Positions 2,689-18,893 of a DNA stretch of 21,363 nucleotides are shown piece after piece. The position numbers and the translations under genes are program-made. Source of the DNA: a virus. A model generated the notes under the pieces. The model saw only the letters and a list, made by a program, of their open reading frames with translations, was not told where the DNA came from and did not search any database. Position 1 is the first letter of the stretch, and the number at the start of each line of letters is the position of its first letter. The stretch spans positions 1 to 21,363 of IMG/VR virus record IMGVR_UViG_3300007734_000460; one strand, given 5' to 3'.

Positions 2689-2972
2689 CCGCGCCTATGT
2701 TCAAAGCACGGATGCCCGCTATATTGCGTCGGCCACGCCGTAGCTGGCACATCCAGCTTTAGGCAATGACCGGAAAATCGAGTCAACCAGCCAACTTTCT
2801 TCATCGCCCCGCGCTTGAAATGGCGGCAGTCATTGCAGTCCGCATCTATGGTTTGCATGGCGATCACGGCAGCGTCGTCTAGCTTCGCGTCGAATTGATC
2901 GGACTCGATCAACTGCTGTTTCGTCATTCTCTCTTTATCGAGAACGGTGGGCGTGCTCCAATAGCGTTTCAT
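2685..2972 (-). CDS. Small Cys-rich (putative zinc-binding) phage protein
   Basis: Leftward gene of 95 residues inside a rightward late cluster. It carries CNDCRHFKRG (C46, C49, H51), a second GHC (C70) and PCFEHRR (C89, H92), a spacing that suggests one metal site; similar C..C-HFKRG...CFEHRR proteins are frequent, uncharacterised phage products. The start at 2972 is supported by a leader AACCAATC reading leftward (in 2978-2986), the same motif used before rightward genes; a second ATG lies at residue 16. The stop codon overlaps the terminase stop within TTAA at 2685-2688, so the two genes converge with a 4-base overlap. Function unknown; a regulatory or host-interaction role is possible but not shown. 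Confidence 0.75.
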   Translation of the reverse strand: MKRYWSTPTVLDKERMTKQQLIESDQFDAKLDDAAVIAMQTIDADCNDCRHFKRGAMKKVGWLTRFSGHCLKLDVPATAWPTQYSGHPCFEHRRG

Positions 2973-2998
2973 ATTTAGATTGGTTGACGCGAAAGAAA

Positions 2999-3016
2999 GC
3001 CGCCATTGCGGGCGGC
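2999..3016. repeat. Hairpin between divergent genes
   Basis: Perfect 6-bp stem GCCGCC/GGCGGC with a six-base loop, between the leftward Cys-rich gene and the rightward phosphoesterase. Read leftward it is followed by CTTTCTTTC, so it could be a weak intrinsic terminator for transcription coming from the right; it could also be an operator. Only the inverted repeat is certain. Confidence 0.4.
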
Positions 3017-3047
3017 GGCAAGATAAATCTTTTCCGCTTTACAACTA

Positions 3048-4079
3048 ATGGATGCAAGGCTAGGCAATGGTTCCATGACCAAAGAAGCACCCGTGAAAAC
3101 CGAGGCCGTGAATCTTTGTCGCCGCTTCCCCACTCTTCCAGCGCGAACACTGGCGAGGATGTTGAATCGAGATCACCCTCACCTTTTTACCACCGTAGAA
3201 CGCGCCCGCACCGCAGTAAGAAATGTGATGGGACTTCTTGGGCCGAGCAATCAAAAAAGGGCGGTTGCCGATCTTGTCCGCCCCAAGCGCAATGCTGGTG
3301 AATGGGAAGGCGTGCCCGTAGGATCCCGCGAAATTGACTGGCGCACCTTCGACGTGGACGGCAAGGCGCGGTGCCTTGTGCTGTCTGATATTCACATCCC
3401 GTTCCATGATGACAAGGCGCTGATTTTGGCGCTGAAACAAGGGAAGCGGGATAAGTGCGACGTTATACTCCTAAATGGAGACATCATGGATTGCTACAAG
3501 CACGGGCGATGGGAAAACGATCCACGCTATTACCCGTTCAAGGAAGAGTTGTCCTACACGATTGCTTTCTTTGAAACCTTGCGCGAAAACTTTCCGAAGG
3601 CGCGCATTATTTGGAAGCTCGGCAACCACGAAGATCGCTACATGATTGCGATGAAGAAAGACCACGCCGTCTTTCTCGATGTGCCCGACTTCGATTTGGC
3701 AAAACTGACACACGCCGACAAGCTCGGCATCGAAATGGTGGACAACATGAGACCGATCCGCTTAGGAAAGCTATTCGTTCTCCACGGCCACGAATACCGC
3801 TTTTCAATCAGCAACCCCGTGAATCCAGCGCGTGGCTTGTTTATGCGGGCAAAGGTAAATGTGATGTGCTCGCACTTCCATCAGACATCGCAGCACAGCG
3901 AGAGCGACCTTGACGGAAAGGTTGTTAGCGCGTTCTCAATCGGCGCGTTATGTGACCTGCATCCGCGCTATGCGCCATTAAATAAATGGAATTTGGGCTA
4001 TGCCAAGGTGGAGACGGATAGTGAGGGCAAGTTTGAAGTGAACAATTACCGCATCGTTGACGGGAGGATATACGCATGA
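3048..4079 (+). CDS. Calcineurin-like metallophosphoesterase
   Basis: The 343-residue product has the full metallophosphoesterase motif set: LSDIHIPFHD (D114, H116), NGDIMD (D145), GNHED (N193, H194), SHFH (H276, H278) and HGHE (H246, H248), which together bind two metal ions and hydrolyse phosphate esters. Residues 25-65 look like a helical DNA-binding segment (ARMLNRDHPHLFTTVERARTAV), a frequent N-terminal extension in phage members. The substrate cannot be told from sequence; nucleic acid or nucleotide processing is a reasonable guess. The start is ambiguous: ATG 3048 follows an A/C-rich TACAACTA leader, and ATG 3075 (residue 10) gives a tidier N terminus. The stop overlaps the next gene as ATGA. 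Confidence 0.9.
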   Translation: MDARLGNGSMTKEAPVKTEAVNLCRRFPTLPARTLARMLNRDHPHLFTTVERARTAVRNVMGLLGPSNQKRAVADLVRPKRNAGEWEGVPVGSREIDWRTFDVDGKARCLVLSDIHIPFHDDKALILALKQGKRDKCDVILLNGDIMDCYKHGRWENDPRYYPFKEELSYTIAFFETLRENFPKARIIWKLGNHEDRYMIAMKKDHAVFLDVPDFDLAKLTHADKLGIEMVDNMRPIRLGKLFVLHGHEYRFSISNPVNPARGLFMRAKVNVMCSHFHQTSQHSESDLDGKVVSAFSIGALCDLHPRYAPLNKWNLGYAKVETDSEGKFEVNNYRIVDGRIYA

Positions 4080-4279
4080 CCAAAGACGAGCTATGGGCGG
4101 CGTTTGTCAGGAAAAACCCCGCATTACTTGCGGCAAATGTCACGTTTTCCGCCGCCGGCGTGCGCCACTTCTTCAACCGCACTTTTGAGATTGCACTTGA
4201 GGAAGGCGAGTATGACATTCCAAAGAAAAACGGCGCAGATATTCCAGATTTTCTGAAACAATTCCTAAGACCACGATGA
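4076..4279 (+). CDS. Small conserved-looking phage protein, function unknown
   Basis: A 67-residue soluble protein beginning MTKDELWAAFVRKNPALL and rich in helix formers, with no cysteine and no membrane segment. It overlaps the phosphoesterase upstream and the next small gene downstream by ATGA at both ends, which makes it very likely translated by coupling. The N-terminal phrase DELW-AFVRKNP with a later RHFFNRTFE segment looks like a recurrent small phage protein found near terminase genes, but I cannot attach a function. Confidence 0.75.
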   Translation: MTKDELWAAFVRKNPALLAANVTFSAAGVRHFFNRTFEIALEEGEYDIPKKNGADIPDFLKQFLRPR

Positions 4280-4485
4280 CTGCAACTTTAACATTCAACC
4301 TGCCAGTCGAGGACACAGAACACCGTTGGGCCGTTGGTGCGCCGGAAATGGCGTCGGCCATCCTTGAACTGATGTCCGACATTCGCGGCTGGCAAAAGCA
4401 CGGGCACAAGTTTCAATCACCCGAAGATGTTATGGAAGCAATCAGACAATCTATGGTTGACGCTTACAGCATCGCGCAAGGATAA
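4276..4485 (+). CDS. Small phage protein, function unknown
   Basis: A 69-residue protein, ATGA-coupled to the gene before it. The N terminus (TATLTFNLPVEDTEHRWAV) reads as a short beta strand with the phrase FNLPVED, followed by amphipathic helices (MASAILELMSDIRGW and PEDVMEAIRQSMVDAYS). Small phage proteins with a FNLP start and a helix ending in a tryptophan are common in packaging clusters and have no assigned role. Codon use matches the neighbours. Confidence 0.7.
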   Translation: MTATLTFNLPVEDTEHRWAVGAPEMASAILELMSDIRGWQKHGHKFQSPEDVMEAIRQSMVDAYSIAQG

Positions 4486-4489
4486 TCCC

Positions 4490-4621
4490 ATGAATGAACC
4501 CGGACTCCCACAGGCAATCACGGCTGGCTCGCTCGTTCTCGCGGTGTTCGTGGTCGGCAATATGTTTTACCGGCTCAGGTGGCGCGGTCGCAAAAATCGG
4601 AAACGGAAATTTCTTCCCTGA
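4490..4621 (+). CDS. Small single-span membrane protein candidate
   Basis: A 43-residue reading frame starts four bases after the previous stop. It has a short N-terminal tail, a hydrophobic stretch at residues 9-27 (AITAGSLVLAVFVVGNMFY) long enough for one membrane span, then a strongly basic tail (RLRWRGRKNRKRKF). The positive-inside rule predicts the basic C terminus in the cytoplasm. Its place in a tight gene series and its clean membrane-protein design favour a real gene; a longer in-frame start at 4427 would overlap the previous gene and is unlikely. It could be a holin-like or membrane-anchoring protein, but nothing in the sequence proves that. Confidence 0.5.
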   Translation: MNEPGLPQAITAGSLVLAVFVVGNMFYRLRWRGRKNRKRKFLP

Positions 4622-4677
4622 CTACGACCAGGACGAAACGCACGGCATGATTATCGGCACCCTAATCACTTTCACAG

Positions 4678-4962
4678 ATGAACGAAGCCGCAGAACAAGC
4701 CATGCAGAAAGTCGCCGCAATACTCGGCGACCACTTTCTTGAGTTTGTAATCGTCTGCGCACAAAAGCAATCGCGTGACCCGATACTAGAACACAGCGGC
4801 AGTATCTTTTCCGCTCACGGGCTGGCACTCGCCGCCGCTTACAAGCTCGATGTGCAAAACATTCCAGACGCACAAGACGACGAGGACGAAGGCGACAACG
4901 AGGGGTGGAAAAAAGACGACGGAGACGATCACACACAAGGTGATCCGCGTGTCGGCGCTTAA
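4678..4962 (+). CDS. Small acidic-tailed protein, function unknown
   Basis: A 94-residue protein with a compact helical first half (AAEQAMQKVAAILGDHFLEFVIVCAQ), a central HGLALAAAYKLD segment, and a last third that is almost entirely D, E, G and K (residues 64-90), which is probably disordered. The stop codon lies in TTAA shared with the leftward 42-residue gene. A frame of similar length on the opposite strand is Arg/Cys-rich and looks like a shadow. I do not recognise a family. Confidence 0.6.
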   Translation: MNEAAEQAMQKVAAILGDHFLEFVIVCAQKQSRDPILEHSGSIFSAHGLALAAAYKLDVQNIPDAQDDEDEGDNEGWKKDDGDDHTQGDPRVGA

Positions 4963-5158: not shown

Positions 5159-5187
5159 TTGACTTGCGTTAGTGTTTCGTGCATAGC
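5159..5187 (+). promoter_or_regulatory. Promoter candidate P2 for the head operon
   Basis: TTGACT (5159-5164), 17 bases, CATAGC (5182-5187). The last nine bases, GTGCATAGC, are identical to P1 at 238-246 and sit at the same distance from TTGAC. The predicted start point near 5194 is only a few bases before the ATG at 5197, so the transcript would be nearly leaderless. A perfect 5-bp hairpin CGTGC/GCACG (5178-5193) overlaps the -10 and could be an operator. Confidence 0.4.
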
Positions 5188-5196
5188 AGCACGGAA

Positions 5197-5752: not shown

Positions 5753-7504
5753 ATGCCAGCGAAAGCAAAAACTAGACAAGTGAAACAGGCATCTCCGCAG
5801 GAAAAGCCGCTTGTGCGCGATTACACGGCGCTCATGCAGCAGCTTAAAAAGCTGAGTCCAGATTGGAGCGTGAATAACATTTCAATGGAGTCGGATATTT
5901 TGGCGAATCAGTTGGATTTGCTGAATTACTCCCGCGACTTGTGGAAAACCAACCCATACCTTCAAGCCTACGGCGACGAAATGGCGGTGAATGTTCACGG
6001 GCCGCAAGGCATACGCCTACGCATGAAGATTCAAGAGGAATCGGATCGCGTGGTTCACGTTGAAGAGGAAAAGCAAAAGATTCGCGGACATTGGCAGCGC
6101 AGAGATAGGGTGAACAAGCATCTCGTCAAGAAAGGCGAGCGCCCTATTTTCGTGCGAGGCTACGAAGAAAAGCGCGGTGCGGCGACAATCAAAGCAGGAG
6201 CGCCCGACATCTACGCCAACAGCTACATTGAACGTGCATGGCTCGATTGGCAGCGCAAAGAGAACTGCACAATCACAGGGCGACTATCCTACAACGAAAG
6301 CCGGATGCTGCGATTGCGTTCGTGCGCCCGTGACGGAGATCACTTCATCCGTTTCCTGCGCGATCCGAAATATAAATACGGAATCAAGATTCAGCACATC
6401 AACACGGAATGGTGCGACTGGCGATTGAACCAAAAGATTGCAAAGGGGCAACCGGGAGAGGGCAACACTATCCGCATGGGCATCGAATACGACGCCAGCG
6501 GGCTTGTTCCTGTTGCGTATCACTTCCGCCGCCCTTCGTTTAATCAATGGCAAGGCGTTGTGCCCGTGTCTTACGGAACGAACGGCAAAGACACGCACGA
6601 GCGTATTTTAGCCGACGACATTATCCACTACGCGAAGTTCGACAACAACTCAGACATCAGCCGTCCAGTTCCTTGGGCGACGGCGATCATGAGTAATGCG
6701 CGCCAGTTGCAGAAATACACCGAGGCGGCAGTTGTTGCGGCTCGCGTAGGTGCGTGCTCAAACATCTTTTTCGAGTCTGAGCTTGGCGGCGAGGACGCCA
6801 CAACGGTTGCCGCGCCAGACCCTCGCGATCTTAATCAACTGGCAATGCAGATGAATCCCGGCGGCATGATAGGATTGCCGCCCGGCATTAAGGCAACCAT
6901 CAACAATCCGAACAACCCAAATCAAAACTTTGGCGCGTTCCGAAACGAAAACCTCCGCGAGTTCTGCGCGGGACTTCCCGGCGCTTCATTCCCTGTGATT
7001 GGCCAAAACTACGCGGAGATCAATTTCAGCGCGGGCCGATTGGATCGCCTCTCGACAACGGGCGCGTGGCAGATGCTCCAAGAGTTCGATATTGAAATGG
7101 CCGAACGTCGCATCTTTGAAGAGTGGCTGAAAATGGCACTCATCACGCAGGCAATTAAGCTGCCAGTCTCCAAGTTTGAGAAGTTCAACAAGCCGCATTT
7201 CCAAGCGCGTCGTTGGCCGGGCGTTGACCCGATGAAGGAAGTCAATGCGGCAGCTTCCGCAATCTCCAATAAGTTCACATCGCGCACCGCAGTCATTGAA
7301 AGCGGCGTATGCGGCGAGAGCGGCGACTTTGAGGATACCATCATTCAACTAGCCGAGGAAGAAATGATGTTGGAAAGCCTTGGTATGTCATGCGCGACCA
7401 CAGCAGACACAATGGAACAAGTCAATCAAACCGCCGAGGAACTAGACGATGAAGATGCAGCCGCAACCAATCCAAAACCAGAAATGGAAGAAGAAGAAGA
7501 TTAA
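5753..7504 (+). CDS. Portal protein, lambda gpB family
   Basis: A 583-residue portal, the dodecameric ring at one head vertex through which DNA passes. Family features include an N-terminal helical start with NNISMESDILANQLDLLNYSRDLWKTNPYL (the lambda-type R-L-NNPY region), YGDEMAVNVHGPQGIRLRM near 73-91, a WLDWQRKENCTITGRLSYNE segment near 163-182 followed by CARDGDHFIRFL (191-202), and VPVAYHF near 252-258. It is about 50 residues longer than lambda gpB; residues 117-155, rich in K, R and G, may be an insertion, and the last 30 residues are strongly acidic. It starts one base after the gpW-like stop, with CCAATAAA before the ATG. Confidence 0.93.
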   Translation: MPAKAKTRQVKQASPQEKPLVRDYTALMQQLKKLSPDWSVNNISMESDILANQLDLLNYSRDLWKTNPYLQAYGDEMAVNVHGPQGIRLRMKIQEESDRVVHVEEEKQKIRGHWQRRDRVNKHLVKKGERPIFVRGYEEKRGAATIKAGAPDIYANSYIERAWLDWQRKENCTITGRLSYNESRMLRLRSCARDGDHFIRFLRDPKYKYGIKIQHINTEWCDWRLNQKIAKGQPGEGNTIRMGIEYDASGLVPVAYHFRRPSFNQWQGVVPVSYGTNGKDTHERILADDIIHYAKFDNNSDISRPVPWATAIMSNARQLQKYTEAAVVAARVGACSNIFFESELGGEDATTVAAPDPRDLNQLAMQMNPGGMIGLPPGIKATINNPNNPNQNFGAFRNENLREFCAGLPGASFPVIGQNYAEINFSAGRLDRLSTTGAWQMLQEFDIEMAERRIFEEWLKMALITQAIKLPVSKFEKFNKPHFQARRWPGVDPMKEVNAAASAISNKFTSRTAVIESGVCGESGDFEDTIIQLAEEEMMLESLGMSCATTADTMEQVNQTAEELDDEDAAATNPKPEMEEEED

Positions 7505-7558
7505 ATTCCTGCCAATCCCGAAACCATTACTAACGCAAGAAACCAAACTTTTAACACG

Positions 7559-8575
7559 ATGAAAACTCTCAAGATTCCAAACCAACTATTCCGCGAAGGA
7601 ATGTCACAAGTTGACAATGGCACATTGCGCCTAAGCATTTGCAGCGACATTCCATACCTCCGCTATAATTGGGCAGACGGTGAACAATACTACGAGGTGC
7701 TCGACCACAGCGAAGGCAGCATTGATTTGTCCCGTCTTAGCAACGGCGCGGCATTGCTGTTTAATCACAAACGCGACATTCAAATCGGACTGATTGATTC
7801 ACCTTCGATTGAGAACGGGCGCTGCTACGTTAACGCCAAGCTATCAAACGCTCCGGACGTTGCCAGCTACAAGACTCGCGTTGAGGAAGGCATATTGAAA
7901 GACACCTCCATCGGCTACGAGGTTACGGACGACGGAACGCCAATCGGAGAGATTGAGGGAATCCCCGCATACAAATTCAAATTCGCAATTCACGAAGCAT
8001 CGCTAGTGACAATTCCCGCCGATCCTACGGTTGGCCTTGGACGTTCTCGCAGCGAAGAGCCCAAGTGCGGACTCAAAGAAATCAACATCGGCGAGAAAAA
8101 GGCGCTTGACTTAACGCAAGTAAGTTGCAATAAGCAAAACATGACGAAGGAAAACGAAGTCGCAGAAACGCCAGTGGAAAAACCGACACCAGCCGAAACT
8201 CCCGCGCCCGCAGTTGTGGAAACTCCTACGGAAACGCCCGTTGAAACTCCCGCCGCTGAACTATCGGCAGAGGAAGTAAAAGCCGCCGCAATTTCTGGCG
8301 AACGCACTCGCGTTGCAGAACTTCGCAAGTGGGCAAAAGACATTTCCGCACTTCGCCACATTGATCTAAACGACGCGCTCTTTACTCACATCGAGGATGG
8401 CAAATCGCTACCAGATTTCAAAGAGTGGGTTTTGGAGAACGAGTTCAAATCCAAACCAACCGCATTTTCATCCGAAACATCCGGCGCAAATGTGCTTTCG
8501 CGCTCTGCGTTCACCGCTCTTTCACCAAGCGAGCAAGCCGCCCACTGCATGAATGGCGGAAAGATTAAAGACTAA
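7559..8575 (+). CDS. Prohead protease with C-terminal scaffold-like region
   Basis: A 338-residue protein after the portal. Residues 1-165 show the HK97-type prohead protease pattern: GAALLFNHKRD (catalytic His likely H70), VEEGILKDTSIGYEV (nucleophile likely S117), and HEASLVTIPADPTVGLGRS (145-163). The protease matures the head by digesting scaffold and trimming the coat. Residues 200-236 are a P/T/E-rich linker and 237-338 are helical and charged, fitting a scaffold. An internal ATG at codon 195 (8141) is preceded by DNA that otherwise occurs only between genes in this window, so the scaffold may also be made alone, as lambda Nu3 is from gene C. The leader before 7559 holds TAACGCAAG and AACCAAAC but no Shine-Dalgarno. 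Confidence 0.88.
   Translation: MKTLKIPNQLFREGMSQVDNGTLRLSICSDIPYLRYNWADGEQYYEVLDHSEGSIDLSRLSNGAALLFNHKRDIQIGLIDSPSIENGRCYVNAKLSNAPDVASYKTRVEEGILKDTSIGYEVTDDGTPIGEIEGIPAYKFKFAIHEASLVTIPADPTVGLGRSRSEEPKCGLKEINIGEKKALDLTQVSCNKQNMTKENEVAETPVEKPTPAETPAPAVVETPTETPVETPAAELSAEEVKAAAISGERTRVAELRKWAKDISALRHIDLNDALFTHIEDGKSLPDFKEWVLENEFKSKPTAFSSETSGANVLSRSAFTALSPSEQAAHCMNGGKIKD
8121..8137 (+). repeat. Boundary repeat copy 1 (inside protease gene)
   Basis: TAAGTTGCAATAAGCAA, identical to 10618-10634. Here it is read as codons of the protease gene but sits four bases before the internal ATG at 8141. It directly follows TAACGCAAG (8112-8120), which elsewhere lies 24-28 bases before start codons. Confidence 0.85.
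8141..8575 (+). CDS. Candidate nested scaffold protein (internal start in the protease gene)
   Basis: In-frame internal start giving 144 residues: MTKENEVAETPVEKP, a P/T/E-rich stretch, then helices with GERTRVAELRKWAKDISALRHID and LPDFKEWVLENEFK. Size and character resemble phage scaffolds. The 29 bases before the ATG contain TAACGCAAG, then a 17-base string found exactly once more, in the true intergenic spacer before the tail tube candidate. Lambda gene C with nested Nu3 is the precedent. Production of a separate protein is inference. Confidence 0.45.
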   Translation: MTKENEVAETPVEKPTPAETPAPAVVETPTETPVETPAAELSAEEVKAAAISGERTRVAELRKWAKDISALRHIDLNDALFTHIEDGKSLPDFKEWVLENEFKSKPTAFSSETSGANVLSRSAFTALSPSEQAAHCMNGGKIKD

Positions 8576-8612: not shown

Positions 8613-9767
8613 ATGGCTAATAATACACTTACCAACCTGATTCCTTCCGCTTACCGCGCACTTAATGTTGTGTCGCGTGAACTGGTTGGCTTCATTCCAT
8701 CCGTTCAGCTTGACCCTAGCGCCGAAATGCTCGCCGTTGGTCAAACTATCTACATCCCGCAAGCGCCAGTCAACTCGGCAGGTAAGGACATCACGCCCGC
8801 AATGGCGTTTCCGACCGCCGCCTATCAAACCATCGGCAGCAAATCGCACTCGCTCACTAAGCAGCGCGCTTTCCCGTTCTCTTGGCAGAACGAAGAGCGC
8901 AAAGCAATGGACGCAGGCCCCGGCTATCTGTCCATCAACGAGCAGCAGATCGCGCAAGCACTTCGTGCCGCTGTGAACGAAATCGAAGTGGACATCGCAG
9001 TTGCCGCAAAGAACGGTGCATCACGCGCTTTCGGCGCAACCGCTGGCACGGCTCCCGTCCTCGCGGATTGGGCGCAGGCTAAAAAGATTCTCGACGACAA
9101 CGGCGCGCCTTCCACGGATCGCACCAGCGTCTTTGACACCACGGCGGGCGTTGCCCTTCGCTCGACAAGCAACCTTTACAAAGTGAACGAAGCTGGCGAC
9201 GGCGGAAGTCTCTTGCGTCAAGGCTTGCTCGGCAATCTCTTTGGATTCAACCTCCGCGAATCCGCTCAGATTCAGACAACCACGAAAGGAACCGCCGCAA
9301 GCGCGACCACGGATAATGCAGGCTACGCAGTCGGCGCAACCGTTCTCACGCTGGCATCAGCCGGAACTGGCACTATCCTCGCGGGCGACATCATCACCTT
9401 TGCTGGCGACAGCAATAAGTATGTAGTTGCAAGCGGAGATGGCGATGTTTCCAACGGCGGCACAATCACACTGGCTGAACCCGGCTTGCGCGTTGCAATG
9501 AGCGCGGCAACCAAAGCGATTACCGTCTTTGGAACTTCTGCCCGCAACACTGCATTTAGCCGCAACTCCATCCTCCTTTCCACCCGCCTCCCCGCAAGCG
9601 TGCAGGGCGACCTCGCCACTGACCGCCAAGTAATCACCGACCCACTCAGCGGAATCTCTTTCGAGCTTTCGATGTATCCCGGCGACCGCATGGTGCATTA
9701 CGAGGTTGGTGTCTGTTGGGGCGTCACGGTTATCAAACCCGAACATCTCGCAATCATCGTTGGCTAA
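8613..9767 (+). CDS. Major capsid protein, P22 coat-like
   Basis: A 384-residue coat protein. The N terminus (ANNTLTNLIPSAYRALNVVSRELVGFIPSV) and the phrases VGQTIYIPQAP, ITPAMAFPTAAYQTIG, FPFSWQNEERKAMDAGPGY and NEIEVDIAVAAKNGASRAFG match the P22-type (gp5) coat family, an HK97-fold shell protein. Residues 230-300, GYAVGATVLTLASAGTGTILAGDIITFAGD and the following strands, look like an inserted beta domain between the two halves of the core fold. Its leader has AACCAATC at 8574-8581 right over the protease stop, and CTAACTCAA just before the ATG. A strong intrinsic terminator follows. Pairing a P22-like coat with lambda-like terminase and portal shows modular ancestry. Confidence 0.9.
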   Translation: MANNTLTNLIPSAYRALNVVSRELVGFIPSVQLDPSAEMLAVGQTIYIPQAPVNSAGKDITPAMAFPTAAYQTIGSKSHSLTKQRAFPFSWQNEERKAMDAGPGYLSINEQQIAQALRAAVNEIEVDIAVAAKNGASRAFGATAGTAPVLADWAQAKKILDDNGAPSTDRTSVFDTTAGVALRSTSNLYKVNEAGDGGSLLRQGLLGNLFGFNLRESAQIQTTTKGTAASATTDNAGYAVGATVLTLASAGTGTILAGDIITFAGDSNKYVVASGDGDVSNGGTITLAEPGLRVAMSAATKAITVFGTSARNTAFSRNSILLSTRLPASVQGDLATDRQVITDPLSGISFELSMYPGDRMVHYEVGVCWGVTVIKPEHLAIIVG

Positions 9768-9839: not shown

Positions 9840-10172
9840 ATGAGCCTTATCACCGCAGCTTTTGACGAACTTGTGACTTCGATCAATGAAGCTCGCGGTT
9901 CATCGCCCACGCTGACAATCGGCGCAATCACGGCAACCGACATCCTTGTTGGTGACAACCCGATTGACGCGCAGATATTCGATGGCGCAACGTGCGATCC
10001 AGACGGGCCGCAAATCAGCTCGAAGGTATCTTCATGGGCAACCTTGCCAGTCAAGAACAATACCGCCGTTATTGCGGCTTCTAGTGGGGCGGATGGCACG
10101 TATGACGTAATGGATACGAACATTCACGACGGCATGATTTACTTGAAACTTGGAAAGCGCGCAGGCTTATGA
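9840..10172 (+). CDS. Putative head-tail connector protein
   Basis: A 110-residue protein immediately after the coat gene and terminator. Helix AAFDELVTSINEARG at the start, then mostly beta strands (LTIGAITATDILVGDNP, AVIAASSGADGTYDV, MIYLKLG). Small alpha-beta proteins at this position usually fill the FII-like or stopper role joining head and tail, but no diagnostic motif is seen. It overlaps the next gene by ATGA, which supports a paired connector and tail-terminator function. Confidence 0.6.
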   Translation: MSLITAAFDELVTSINEARGSSPTLTIGAITATDILVGDNPIDAQIFDGATCDPDGPQISSKVSSWATLPVKNNTAVIAASSGADGTYDVMDTNIHDGMIYLKLGKRAGL

Positions 10173-10606
10173 GCAACTTCGCTGAATACGATATTGAGCG
10201 CATGGTCATTACCATTCTCGCCGCGCAGACGGATTTGCCAGCGGCATTGCACCGCGACGTTGACGATGGCGCGGACAAGGACAGAATCATCGTGAAATGC
10301 GACCCGCGAGAGGTGGAGCTTGGCAACAAAGATGAGGGAGAAGCGCCGTCCCGTTGGGGCGCGGAGTTGACCGTTGAAATGCGGCTTGCCAGCATTACCG
10401 ACATGGCGAAGTTGCAGCTATGGAGCACGGCCATTGACGCCGCTTTTGCTGGCTCTCCACCGGCAGCAACCACGGCTCTTTTCAACACGCTTTACGGCGC
10501 AACGAACGGCTATTTTCAAATCAAAGCCGCAGACGGCGGAAGTCGGCAAGGGCCGGGATCGCAAGTGCGCGAATGGTCACGAACTTTTCGCGTAGTTACG
10601 TCTTGA
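10169..10606 (+). CDS. Putative tail terminator / tail completion protein
   Basis: A 145-residue protein coupled by ATGA to the connector. An N-terminal helix (AEYDIERMVITILAAQTDLPAALHR) is followed by DRIIVKCDPREVEL, then an alternating strand and helix pattern (AELTVEMRLA, ITDMAKLQLWSTAIDAAF) and a final strand SRTFRVVTS. This plan, a helix, a strand with R-DPR, a helix and a last beta strand, fits gpU-like or HK97-gp10-adjacent tail terminators, which cap the tail tube. The assignment rests on position and fold pattern, not on a recognised sequence match. Confidence 0.55.
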   Translation: MSNFAEYDIERMVITILAAQTDLPAALHRDVDDGADKDRIIVKCDPREVELGNKDEGEAPSRWGAELTVEMRLASITDMAKLQLWSTAIDAAFAGSPPAATTALFNTLYGATNGYFQIKAADGGSRQGPGSQVREWSRTFRVVTS

Positions 10607-10617
10607 CTAATCGCCAC

Positions 10618-10634
10618 TAAGTTGCAATAAGCAA
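10618..10634 (+). repeat. Boundary repeat copy 2 (intergenic)
   Basis: Exact second copy of the 17-base string at 8121-8137, here in the 52-base spacer before the tail tube candidate. It is followed by two tandem AACCAATC motifs (10638-10645 and 10648-10655) spaced ten bases apart, the second ending three bases before the ATG at 10659. Confidence 0.85.
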
Positions 10635-10658: not shown

Positions 10659-11078
10659 ATGAAACTCTTACTCTTACTTTTTTATACCATGACTATCATC
10701 GGAACAGCAGGCCCAACGCACGGAATCCCCGCCGACGAAACGGGCATCCTCATCAAATCTCTCGGACTCAGCTTTGAGCCTGAGTTCACCGACCCGCTCA
10801 CAAACCGCGAAGGCGAGCGCATCAACGAAGCGCGTGGCGCGATTTGCAACAAAATCAGCATCACGGGCGAAATCAATTCTGCCACGGGCATTGTTGACGC
10901 AACTTTCTACGCCGCCGTCACGCTGACAAACACACTCGGCGTCACGGGCGCAACCGCCAACGGGCTTCTGCCAATGGCTGTGGGCGGCGTGTATATGAAC
11001 AGCGCCAAGGTGGATCAATCCGCTACGGGCTGGAAAACTCTCTCGGCTGAATACCAGCAATACGCTGGAATCGCCTAA
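10659..11078 (+). CDS. Putative tail tube protein
   Basis: A 139-residue protein at the position of the major tail protein, between the tail terminator candidate and the chaperone pair. The core from residue 11 (TIIGTAGPTHGIPADETGIL, then LGLSFEPEF, ISITGEINSATG and LSAEYQQYAG) is glycine- and beta-rich as expected for a tube subunit. The first ten residues, MKLLLLLFYT, are hydrophobic and unlike tube proteins. Two starts are possible: ATG 10659 directly follows the double AACCAATC leader, while ATG 10689 (residue 11) gives a typical tube N terminus. Both cannot be judged without peptide data. Confidence 0.6.
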   Translation: MKLLLLLFYTMTIIGTAGPTHGIPADETGILIKSLGLSFEPEFTDPLTNREGERINEARGAICNKISITGEINSATGIVDATFYAAVTLTNTLGVTGATANGLLPMAVGGVYMNSAKVDQSATGWKTLSAEYQQYAGIA

Positions 11079-12379: not shown

Positions 12380-12560
12380 AGAAATCATAATTAGAATGCA
12401 CTTACACGCCGCATTTCTTCGCATTTCAGGCGGCAGTATAAATGACGTAACCGAAGACGAGGTGTTTGATTTTGCGGCGAGCGAACTAAAGAGCAGTGGA
12501 ATTTCCAAGAAATCTGGAATCAAGATTTTAACCGAGGCGGTAAAAAGGATCACTCAATGA
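12324..12560 (+). CDS. Small basic-helical protein of the accessory cassette
   Basis: A 78-residue protein with a lysine-rich start (MKPKNKKPKFSVQEES) and helices (MIREIIIRMHLHAAFLRI, DEVFDFAASELKSSGI, SGIKILTEAVKRI). Codons AGA and ATA are frequent here, unlike the CGC-preferring structural genes, which suggests later arrival. ATG 12324 lies in AACCAATG; a TTG at 12312 is a possible upstream start. The stop overlaps the ligase-like gene as ATGA, tying it to that cassette. No family recognised. Confidence 0.55.
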   Translation: MKPKNKKPKFSVQEESMIREIIIRMHLHAAFLRISGGSINDVTEDEVFDFAASELKSSGISKKSGIKILTEAVKRITQ

Positions 12561-13231
12561 ACATCCAACTTCTCACCGATTGCCTAGACCCCGAACCGCT
12601 TTTCCATTCTCCGCTATGGGCGGCGGAAGAAAAATGCGATGGCGACTGGCGCAGGCTGGTTAAATGCGGCAACGAAGTCTATGGCATCACCCGCGAGGGC
12701 AACCGCGTAGCACTGGCCGGCGAAACGGTTGCTCTTGCAATGCTTTCACCGTTCGACTTCGTTCTCGACGGCGAACAGATGCCCGCAGGCCGCTTTGTGG
12801 CGTTCGACATCTTTGGGTTGATGGGCGCGCCTGTCCTTGGCGATAACAGCGCACGCCGCGACATCCTTTGTGACGTGTGGAAAGGCGAAGTTGTCCAGCG
12901 CGTCATTGGCGAGGAAGCAAAACGCGAACTGTGCGAGCGCGTGAAGGAAATGGGCGGCGAGGGCATCGTGTTCAAGCGCGTGGATGCCCCCTACATCGAA
13001 GGTCGCACTCCCTATTGCCAACGCTGGAAAAACTACCAGCAGGAAGTGTTTGAAGTTGCCGCCGTGAACATCGCCAAGTGCAGCGTGGAAGTTGCTCGCA
13101 ATGGCGTATCGTTTGGCGGCGTGCCCGTGCAATCGCTCGCTCGGTTGCCGAAAGTGGGCGACAAGATTCTTGTGAAATACGAACGGGTGACGGAAAAGGG
13201 GAAGCTGCTTCGGGCGGTGCTTGCAAAATGA
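12557..13231 (+). CDS. Minimal ATP-dependent ligase-like nucleotidyltransferase
   Basis: A 224-residue protein with the ordered motifs of ATP-dependent polynucleotide ligases: motif I EKCDGDWR (K26 the probable AMP acceptor, with D28, G29, R32), motif III FVLDGE (68-73), motif IIIa VAFDIFG (81-87), motif IV GGEGIVFK (133-140) and motif V QRWKNYQ (155-161). From residue 165 a beta-rich end (FEVAAVN, VEVARNGVSFGG, KILVKYERV) fits a small OB fold. It is shorter than most DNA ligases and has no N-terminal DNA-binding domain, as in minimal phage ligases. It would seal nicks using ATP; RNA ligase or capping-type activity cannot be excluded. ATGA-coupled at both ends, in a tail operon where ligases are not expected. 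Confidence 0.82.
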   Translation: MNIQLLTDCLDPEPLFHSPLWAAEEKCDGDWRRLVKCGNEVYGITREGNRVALAGETVALAMLSPFDFVLDGEQMPAGRFVAFDIFGLMGAPVLGDNSARRDILCDVWKGEVVQRVIGEEAKRELCERVKEMGGEGIVFKRVDAPYIEGRTPYCQRWKNYQQEVFEVAAVNIAKCSVEVARNGVSFGGVPVQSLARLPKVGDKILVKYERVTEKGKLLRAVLAK

Positions 13232-14055
13232 AACTCACCGCCGAACAAGAGGCTTATAGAATTAGCCGAGTGCAAGCATCGCTAAAAGGACATCCGCCAA
13301 CAGACTTGCAAAGAAAGGCGCGCGCCGAAGGACTCAGAAAAGCATGGGCAGAAGGCCGTATAAAGCCCAATTCAACGCCGGAATCTATCAAAAAAACAGC
13401 CGACAAATTACGCGGAAGAAAACGACCAGCGGATGTAATAGCCAGGATCGCCAAATCAAATACAGGAAAGAAGCGAACACCAGAGCAGATCGAAGCGTTT
13501 AGGCAAATACAACTTGCAGGCCGAGCTGCCGGAAAATACAAGTCATCTCCAGAAGGCGCTGAGCGACGAAGGCTCGCGGCAATCGCCGCCCACTTGGGTA
13601 TTCCAAGAACAGAAGAACAGAAACGCCGACATTCAGATATAATGCGCGGAAGGAAGGCGAAGCCGGAACACGTAGAGAAGAGGATCGCGCCGATGATTGG
13701 GAGAGAACAAAAAGCTACACTCACATCGAAGGGGCCGACTAATCATGGCAGCATTGATGGCGTATTAAGGGATGCGAAAGGGCGGATTTGGCATTTCAGA
13801 AATCTCACTCATTTTGTTCGGACGCATCAGGAATTATTCGACCCAAAGGATTTAGTTATGAAACCAGCAGGACGCGGACGCAGGCAGCTATTTTGTAACG
13901 CAGCCAAGCGGCTTCTTCAGCTTTTTAAGAATGGAAAGAAAACGCTGGCGACATGGAAAGGCTGGACGGTCGCCTTTTCCATAATGGAGCGCGCAGAAGG
14001 CGGTGGCGACTTACTAGGGCGCGATTGCGCGACAGTGGTTGAACTTGCCAAATAA
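13228..14055 (+). CDS. NUMOD3-type DNA-binding protein, no nuclease domain seen
   Basis: From ATG 13228 (ATGA overlap with the ligase-like gene) this gives 275 residues. The first 160 are very basic and contain repeated short units of the NUMOD3 kind known from homing endonucleases: TPESIKKTADKLRGRKRPAD, the following SNTGKKRTPEQIEAFRQ, and TEEQKRRHSDIMRGRKAKPE. The C-terminal part has HGSIDGVLRDAKGRIWHFRN, LTHFVRTHQELF and TWKGWTVAF, a segment that recurs with NUMOD units in phage proteins. No HNH, GIY-YIG or LAGLIDADG motif is visible, so it may bind DNA without cutting, or use an unrecognised active site. AGA/AGG and ATA codons in the first half suggest transfer. A farther upstream start at 13078 would overlap the ligase by 150 bases and is rejected. 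Confidence 0.7.
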   Translation: MKLTAEQEAYRISRVQASLKGHPPTDLQRKARAEGLRKAWAEGRIKPNSTPESIKKTADKLRGRKRPADVIARIAKSNTGKKRTPEQIEAFRQIQLAGRAAGKYKSSPEGAERRRLAAIAAHLGIPRTEEQKRRHSDIMRGRKAKPEHVEKRIAPMIGREQKATLTSKGPTNHGSIDGVLRDAKGRIWHFRNLTHFVRTHQELFDPKDLVMKPAGRGRRQLFCNAAKRLLQLFKNGKKTLATWKGWTVAFSIMERAEGGGDLLGRDCATVVELAK

Positions 14056-14079
14056 CCCGCGCCCGCGCATAGTCGGCGC

Positions 14080-14790
14080 GTGACCATAAAGTATGACTTT
14101 TCGGGGCTGAACAAGGCACTTGCTCAAAAAGTGCAGCTTTCACGCACGCCCGTTGTGGACATCGTGCAGGATGCCGCTATGAAGGTGCTCATTGGAAGCG
14201 GCACAGGCGATGGACTTGTGCAGTTGACAAGGAAGGCCACCAAAGAGCGAATTAAAGCCGACATGAGCGTTCCTGTGTCTGGCACACTCGGCAGACCAAG
14301 CGGCGGCAAAGGGCGCACGATTACGCGACCAAGGTTATTTTGGCTCGCGTTGCAATGGCTGAAACAAAATGGCCGTCCATTCAGTAAAGAGTCCGTCAAA
14401 GAAGTGATGAGCGTCATTTTGAAAATGCGAATCGCTTCCCGTGCATACATAGCAGCCGGGTGGCTCTGGTGTGCCCGCGATCTCCACGAAAAGTCTCCTT
14501 ACCTGCAAAAGAAGCACAAGCTGACAAGGCTTCGGGCGAAGGATATGCCGATGGTGGATAAAGCGGCGGGCGGAAGCGCGGCCCAATCGTTCAGCGTCAC
14601 CTACGCTGGCGACAATCAGTGCAGCGTCACGCTCTACAATACTTCACGCGGAGGCGACACTGTTGGTATGGAGTTTGTTCAACAGGCCATCAACAACGCG
14701 ACCAAGGATGTTCAAGAATATATTGACAAGAAGCTTGTCGGGGGCGTGCTCAAGGAAATGCTCAAAGGAAGTAATTTTGTAGTAAAGTAA
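14080..14790 (+). CDS. Putative minor tail protein
   Basis: A 236-residue protein starting at GTG 14080 (MTIKYDFSGLNKALAQKV). It has helices (PVVDIVQDAAMKVLIG), a basic region RLFWLALQWLKQ, the segment RIASRAYIAAGWLWCARDL, a strand-rich SFSVTYAGDNQCSVTLYNTS and a C-terminal helix with EYIDKKLVGGVLKEML. The phrase with a Trp-Leu after an Ala/Gly helix is common in phage minor tail or neck proteins encoded before the tape measure gene. The position supports a tail role; no specific family is certain. A promoter-like TTGCCA, 17 bases, CATAGT ends seven bases before the GTG. Confidence 0.55.
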   Translation: MTIKYDFSGLNKALAQKVQLSRTPVVDIVQDAAMKVLIGSGTGDGLVQLTRKATKERIKADMSVPVSGTLGRPSGGKGRTITRPRLFWLALQWLKQNGRPFSKESVKEVMSVILKMRIASRAYIAAGWLWCARDLHEKSPYLQKKHKLTRLRAKDMPMVDKAAGGSAAQSFSVTYAGDNQCSVTLYNTSRGGDTVGMEFVQQAINNATKDVQEYIDKKLVGGVLKEMLKGSNFVVK

Positions 14791-14816
14791 CGCAATTTGT
14801 TTGCAATAGGCGGGCG

Positions 14817-18859: not shown

Positions 18860-18893
18860 CAATGACCAATAACGCAAGCTACTAACAATAACG

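Follow-up and report, generated by a model that had tools for sequence, protein, structure and literature searches.

Does a phage gene in which a head protease is joined to a scaffold also contain a second, nested gene for the scaffold alone? The locus that raises this question lies in a 21.4-kb stretch of the virus record IMGVR_UViG_3300007734_000460, here called the window, which is a tailed-phage structural module containing genes for terminase, portal, protease-scaffold, a P22-like capsid protein, tail proteins and tape measure. The original prediction placed a nested scaffold start at an in-frame ATG inside the protease-scaffold gene. Its coordinates were right: ATG 8141 is codon 195, in the same frame as ATG 7559. 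The genes concerned are as follows.

7559 to 8575, plus strand: protease-scaffold fusion gene (338 aa, 37.0 kDa), assigned by a PHROG profile, a Pfam match below cut-off and a structure model

8141 to 8575, plus strand: putative nested scaffold gene (144 aa, 15.5 kDa, pI 4.9), opening with a conserved ATG

8613 to 9767, plus strand: major capsid protein, P22-coat-like (PHROG 283)

10689 to 11078, plus strand: gene behind the second copy of the element described below, a tail tube protein by position only

A PHROG search gave no match for the last of these genes. Its start is probably ATG 10689 rather than ATG 10659, since the former (MTIIGTAG) fits the relatives better, the stretch from 10659 to 10689 has frame-breaking length differences among them, and one (L005) is without the first ATG. 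Amid the tail genes, 12557 to 13231 encodes a product with weak similarity to DNA/RNA ligases. Genome-collection scans returned zero relatives with query A2 and six with query A3, one of which (82%) lies in a Verrucomicrobiota MAG, in a contig so short (3.1 kb) that it gives only a hint of the host.

The protease-scaffold protein is modelled as a protease fold (residues 1-180), a disordered stretch (181-236), helices (237-294) and a C-terminal coat-binding-type motif (312-338) with helices at 315-331. Profile searches matched the protease to PHROG 4523 (E 9e-36) and PHROG 80 (E 2e-9), and to Pfam S78 (PF04586) at 19.4 bits, below the cut-off of 21 (E 0.0012). The best structural match of the protease model was T4 gp21 (5jbl), with Z 10.1 and an rmsd of 3.1 across 133 residues. 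Herpesvirus proteases came next; their Z of 4-6 is within reach of chance, yet they fill the list. The predicted model has the fold of T4 gp21 and herpes assemblin with a conserved His and Ser; H70 and S117 are invariant and would be the catalytic residues.

SRSAFTALSPSEQAAHCMNGGKIKD, the C-terminal motif, is found again in phages whose capsid proteins are related, where it closes the gene directly ahead of that for the capsid. In several of these phages the scaffold has a gene to itself, 137-157 aa long (137 aa in L053, 157 in L057, 152 in L059 and L060, 155 in L062), and in L058, L061, L064 and L067 it is fused to a different, ClpP-type protease. The nested 144-aa product is similar in size to the stand-alone scaffolds. 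It may be a P22-like scaffold, to judge by the shared C-terminal motif, the helices at 315-331 and the P22-like capsid gene behind it, and its coat-binding role is a prediction.

The window's gene has the look of a protease module joined to a scaffold module, and the suggestion that two once separate genes were joined here gained support from distant homologues. Homologues of the protease domain occur in 62 further loci, where they mostly form proteins of ~570-700 aa fused to an HK97-type capsid protein; in Faecalibacterium phage FP_Epona, protease and capsid are two separate genes. One locus, L160 (L036 is the same record), pairs the tail-gene element of the window (at 6267) with a protease-HK97-type capsid fusion (2852-4816), a combination which indicates that head modules are exchanged within one phage backbone. 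Because the protease homologues are mostly protease-HK97-type capsid fusions, and because L160 points to such exchange, the gene looks like a hybrid whose protease came from the protease-capsid fusion family and whose scaffold tail came from the P22-like capsid family.

Ahead of ATG 8141 lies an element of the form TTGACT-N17-AATAAG, within the protease-scaffold gene. Its parts and related sites in the window are listed here.

8106 to 8135, plus strand: nested promoter-like element TTGACTTAACGCAAGTAAGTTGCAATAAGC, identical at 30/30 nt in 17 relatives and at 29/30 in the more distant L045

8106 to 8111, plus strand: -35-like hexamer TTGACT, of which TTGAC is conserved before the junction ATG

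8112 to 8120, plus strand: promoter spacer segment TAACGCAAG

8121 to 8137, plus strand: 17-mer in common with 10618-10634

8129 to 8134, plus strand: -10-like hexamer AATAAG at 17-nt spacing; consensus of 18 homologues [CA]A[AT]A[AC][GC]

10603 to 10632, plus strand: second copy of the element, TTGACTAATCGCCACTAAGTTGCAATAAGC, starting in the last codon of the gene at 10169-10606 and reaching into the spacer ahead of the tail gene

14788 to 14808, plus strand: weaker related element TAACGCAATTTGTTTGCAATA, preceding the tape-measure gene

The original prediction had read two leader sequences here, TAACGCAAG and a 17-base string. No exact repeat in the window is longer than this string, TAAGTTGCAATAAGCAA, which has no sites other than 8121 and, as predicted, 10618. 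The repeat extends leftward, with TTGACT equally spaced in both copies, so that the shared unit is TTGACT-N13-TTGCAATAAGC; a search of the whole window allowing up to 3 mismatches over the 17 specified bases found two matches, both perfect, against 0.04 expected. TAACGCAAG stands at 8112-8120, at the predicted sites 7531-7539 and 18870-18878, and on the minus strand at 5163-5171 (4 matches against 0.24 in shuffles). We rejected it as a leader of its own because the 7531 copy is not kept in relatives; the tail copy has other bases in its place. The whole at 8106-8135 has the shape of a candidate promoter (-35, 17-base spacer, -10), not of a ribosome leader. TAA codons are indeed present in both other frames, but this is uninformative.

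Measured against the sigma-70 consensus (TTGACA, 17 nt, TATAAT), which may not be that of the host, TTGACT agrees at 5/6 positions and AATAAG at 4/6, and a TG sits one base ahead of the -10. Two points count against a promoter: AATAAG is without the final T, and a generic sigma-70 scan of the window, whose predictions did not rise above shuffles, did not list the site at 8106-8135.

Other motifs were seen in the window. A GCAA-N5-TTGC dyad, often in the form TTGACGCAA-N5-TTGCAATAG, overlaps the element at 8116-8128 and stands again before the tape-measure gene at 14793-14805 and in relatives (L011 at 9397, L120 at 3630); its role might be that of an operator or of an activator site. At 5159-5194, TTGACT-N17-CATAGC lies directly ahead of the head-joining gene, in a stretch that recurs in relatives, and that gene likely starts at ATG 5194 rather than GTG 5179. 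At 14045-14082, TTGCCA-N17-CATAGT is followed 6 bases further on by GTG 14080, which looks like a leaderless gene start.

The element's 30 bases and ATG 8141 are unchanged in all 17 close relatives (86-99% protein identity), among which the two codons between element and ATG differ. As sole proof, synonymous conservation in this set was judged too weak, given runs of 12 and 11 unchanged codons elsewhere in the gene, and L045 and the distant homologues were therefore needed. The protease gene of L045, at 62% protein identity to that of the window, keeps the ATG and 29 of the 30 bases, the lone change turning Val to Ala. Of 117 identical degenerate residues upstream of the element, only 41 (35%) have the same codon in L045, compared with 8/8 inside it.

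A strict scan of IMG/VR for the element returned 25 stretches. Two perfect copies were present in 8 of 10 relatives searched whole, the first within the protease gene and the second ahead of the tail gene; the remaining two were L160, with its different head module, and a contig that apparently ends before the protease gene. Relatives differ in the 9 bases that separate the blocks of the tail copy (AATCGCCAC, TGTCGCAAG, TGTTGCCAC, TGATGCAAG), while TTGACT and TAAGTTGCAATAAGC are constant. Fixed blocks around variable bases are the pattern of a putative -35 and -10 with their spacer.

Among the distant protease-capsid fusions, 32 of 33 non-redundant genes have an in-frame ATG in the variable linker right after the protease domain. 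This junction ATG was identified by visual inspection, taking the Met of the linker that follows the protease, and some genes have further Mets nearby. The 18 bases before it (29 genes) comprise A 0.42, C 0.32, G 0.13 and T 0.13, close to the composition at the starts of the next genes (A 0.40, C 0.31, G 0.15, T 0.14) and different from that at 362 other internal ATGs (A 0.23, C 0.29, G 0.30, T 0.18). In the A/C-rich group of homologues, the bases upstream of the junction ATG match those of true starts, unlike those of other internal ATGs.

Part of the A/C richness of the junction linkers comes from their amino acids. Since this could cause the bias, third-position G was tested against each gene's own codon usage, a synonymous test that controls for it. 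Third-position G was depleted over a stretch that begins ~20 codons upstream of the junction ATG and ends 14 codons downstream of it (z about -4 to -6.5), an effect that fades within some 30 codons and that agrees in a linker-non-redundant set of 18. Folding was also weakest at the junction ATG (mean -2.4 kcal/mol in 50-nt windows), compared with -3.2 at the genes' own starts and -12.1 at other internal ATGs. In the window, the 50 nt round ATG 8141 fold at -6.4, more than at its other starts, which suits a leaderless mRNA, not one with a long leader.

Outside the A/C-rich group, the junction ATG is preceded by a Shine-Dalgarno sequence (match of at least 4) in 9 of 10 genes, against 15 of 117 other internal ATGs (p 7e-7; as the homologues are mutually related, p-values are guides only). 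The cultured phages R4C, Mica, Alexa, ECO1230-10, Persinger, Bas97 and PBb002 agree, with a Shine-Dalgarno sequence before 7/7 junction ATGs and 20/99 others. No such match of at least 4 was found before the junction ATG in 19 A/C-rich homologues.

What the A/C-rich group has at the junction is TTGAC, present before the ATG in 19 of 21 genes (20 homologues and that of the window) and absent from the other two. Resampling of synonymous codons predicts it in 3.9 +/- 1.7 genes, with a maximum of 11 in 10,000 resamplings, and other stretches of the same genes have it in 0-3. In the linker-non-redundant set, TTGAC is the commonest pentamer (16/18 genes against 3.2 expected), and L150 has it even though 17 of its Asp codons are GAT and only 3 are GAC. 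When 18 homologues are aligned on TTGAC, A occupies position 2 of the -10 in 14 and position 4 in 16, and CA opens a -10 at 17-nt spacing in 11. Similar sequences stand in true spacers (L122 at 10397, L160 at 472, L159 at 1127, there one base shorter, and the window at 10603). The distance from the first base of TTGAC to the junction ATG varies from 35 to 80 nt, so that TTGAC is no ribosome-binding element. The Shine-Dalgarno group lacks TTGAC at the junction; the evidence for a promoter appears confined to the A/C-rich group, and that from the Shine-Dalgarno group bears only on a start codon.

Taken together, the conserved element, the ATG, its start context, the Shine-Dalgarno matches and the conservation of TTGAC make it quite probable that a nested promoter and start yield a protease-free scaffold of 15.5 kDa in this phage and a protease-free capsid precursor in its relatives. 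The start proposed at codon 195 gains from the ATG retained in all relatives and from the C-terminal motif of stand-alone scaffolds, its product being a prediction. From these features we infer how the nested gene would be transcribed and translated, in what relative amounts, and from what kind of start. Upstream transcripts would yield a little of the full protease-scaffold protein, and the nested promoter an additional mRNA from near the junction, covering the 144-aa scaffold free of protease and the adjoining capsid gene. Ribosomes would initiate at the nested ATG to make protease-free scaffold in the window's clade or capsid precursor in relatives; among the Shine-Dalgarno homologues the long mRNA alone may suffice for the nested start. 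Transcription is predicted to start at about 8141, 7 bases past the -10, at the A of the ATG itself. A -10 at 8129-8134 would place the start within a base or two of the ATG, hence a nearly leaderless mRNA; the chances that the nested mRNA in the window is leaderless or nearly so seem about evenly balanced.

That only a translation start is nested here, with internal initiation on the long mRNA in the manner of lambda C/Nu3 and a TTGAC that is no promoter, we consider unlikely. The conservation of start-codon context and Shine-Dalgarno sequences across the family, together with the Shine-Dalgarno group's lack of TTGAC, would fit this explanation, but ribosome binding needs neither TTGAC nor -10-like bases at 17-nt spacing, both of which are conserved, and a perfect copy of the element stands at a different distance from its gene start. 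Still less probable is a nested promoter that serves only the capsid gene at 8613 and those downstream, with ATG 8141 a passenger. The promoter does lie 507 bases ahead of the capsid gene, and its second copy likewise precedes a gene whose likely role calls for abundance; yet every relative retains ATG 8141 while the two codons preceding it vary, and in distant genes the homologous ATG has a start-like context with the capsid protein itself in frame behind it. That the element is just a piece of the tail spacer brought in by duplication or recombination, or reflects protein conservation only, with no function in expression, is hardly credible: the two copies do share 17 exact bases and 88% of 33, and modules appear fused at this very junction, but L045 retains the element at its level of divergence with a lone change that alters a residue, and many diverged homologues have the junction TTGAC without the 17-mer.

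The nearest known system to the proposed nested promoter and start is herpesvirus UL26/UL26.5, which is closer than lambda C/Nu3 in having its own promoter and a similar protease fold. In HSV-1, the promoter of UL26.5 is nested in UL26. Herpesvirus UL26 and UL26.5 are in-frame nested genes with a common 3' end, the protease being present only in the long product and the scaffold in both (PMC4498786). The window likewise has an in-frame ATG after the protease domain and a common 3' end, a similar protease fold (in its predicted model) and, in place of the nested promoter, a conserved promoter-like element. It differs in belonging to a phage with a putative bacterial-type promoter, and most of the phage relatives share between their products the capsid protein itself, not a scaffold.

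The original prediction had drawn the parallel to lambda, where the 3' part of the protease gene C encodes the scaffold Nu3 in frame, as Shaw and Murialdo reportedly described in 1980; by the usual account, ribosomes reach the Nu3 start through an internal site. The logic is the same, a phage protease gene whose 3' part encodes a scaffold in frame, but the protease family is another and the window also indicates a promoter. Lambda C is an S49 family peptidase (PMC10695390), of the S49/ClpP type, whereas the protease of the window has the S78/T4 gp21/herpes fold. Fusions annotated as 'Major head and protease protein' (PHROG 4523) in Dinoroseobacter phage R4C and E. coli phages ECO1230-10 and Bas97 have a homologous protease domain and a Met with start context at the same junction. 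The predicted nested start is Met 189 in R4C and Met 217 in Bas97. The protease partner in these fusions is an HK97-type capsid protein, and the annotation gives a single product, whereas the window's phage has a scaffold in the position of the capsid protein and a separate P22-like capsid gene. No account of an internal start or promoter in a protease-capsid fusion turned up in the literature searched, which lay mostly outside subscription journals.

Each head of a phage or herpesvirus takes many copies of scaffold or capsid protein but only few of protease. Fusion of protease and capsid protein in one gene seems to impose equal amounts, a problem that a conserved nested start and promoter would solve. 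Somewhat more guardedly, we think it likely that S78-type protease-capsid fusion genes in general hide a second gene for a capsid precursor or scaffold free of protease, with a conserved internal start and, in one large group, a conserved promoter as well, the dose of protease being set by the two starts. Many records of a 'major capsid protein' would then miss a second start. The nested layout ties phage head assembly to UL26/UL26.5 in viruses with a similar protease fold and, if true in general, S78-type nested genes would be the phage counterpart of herpesvirus UL26/UL26.5.
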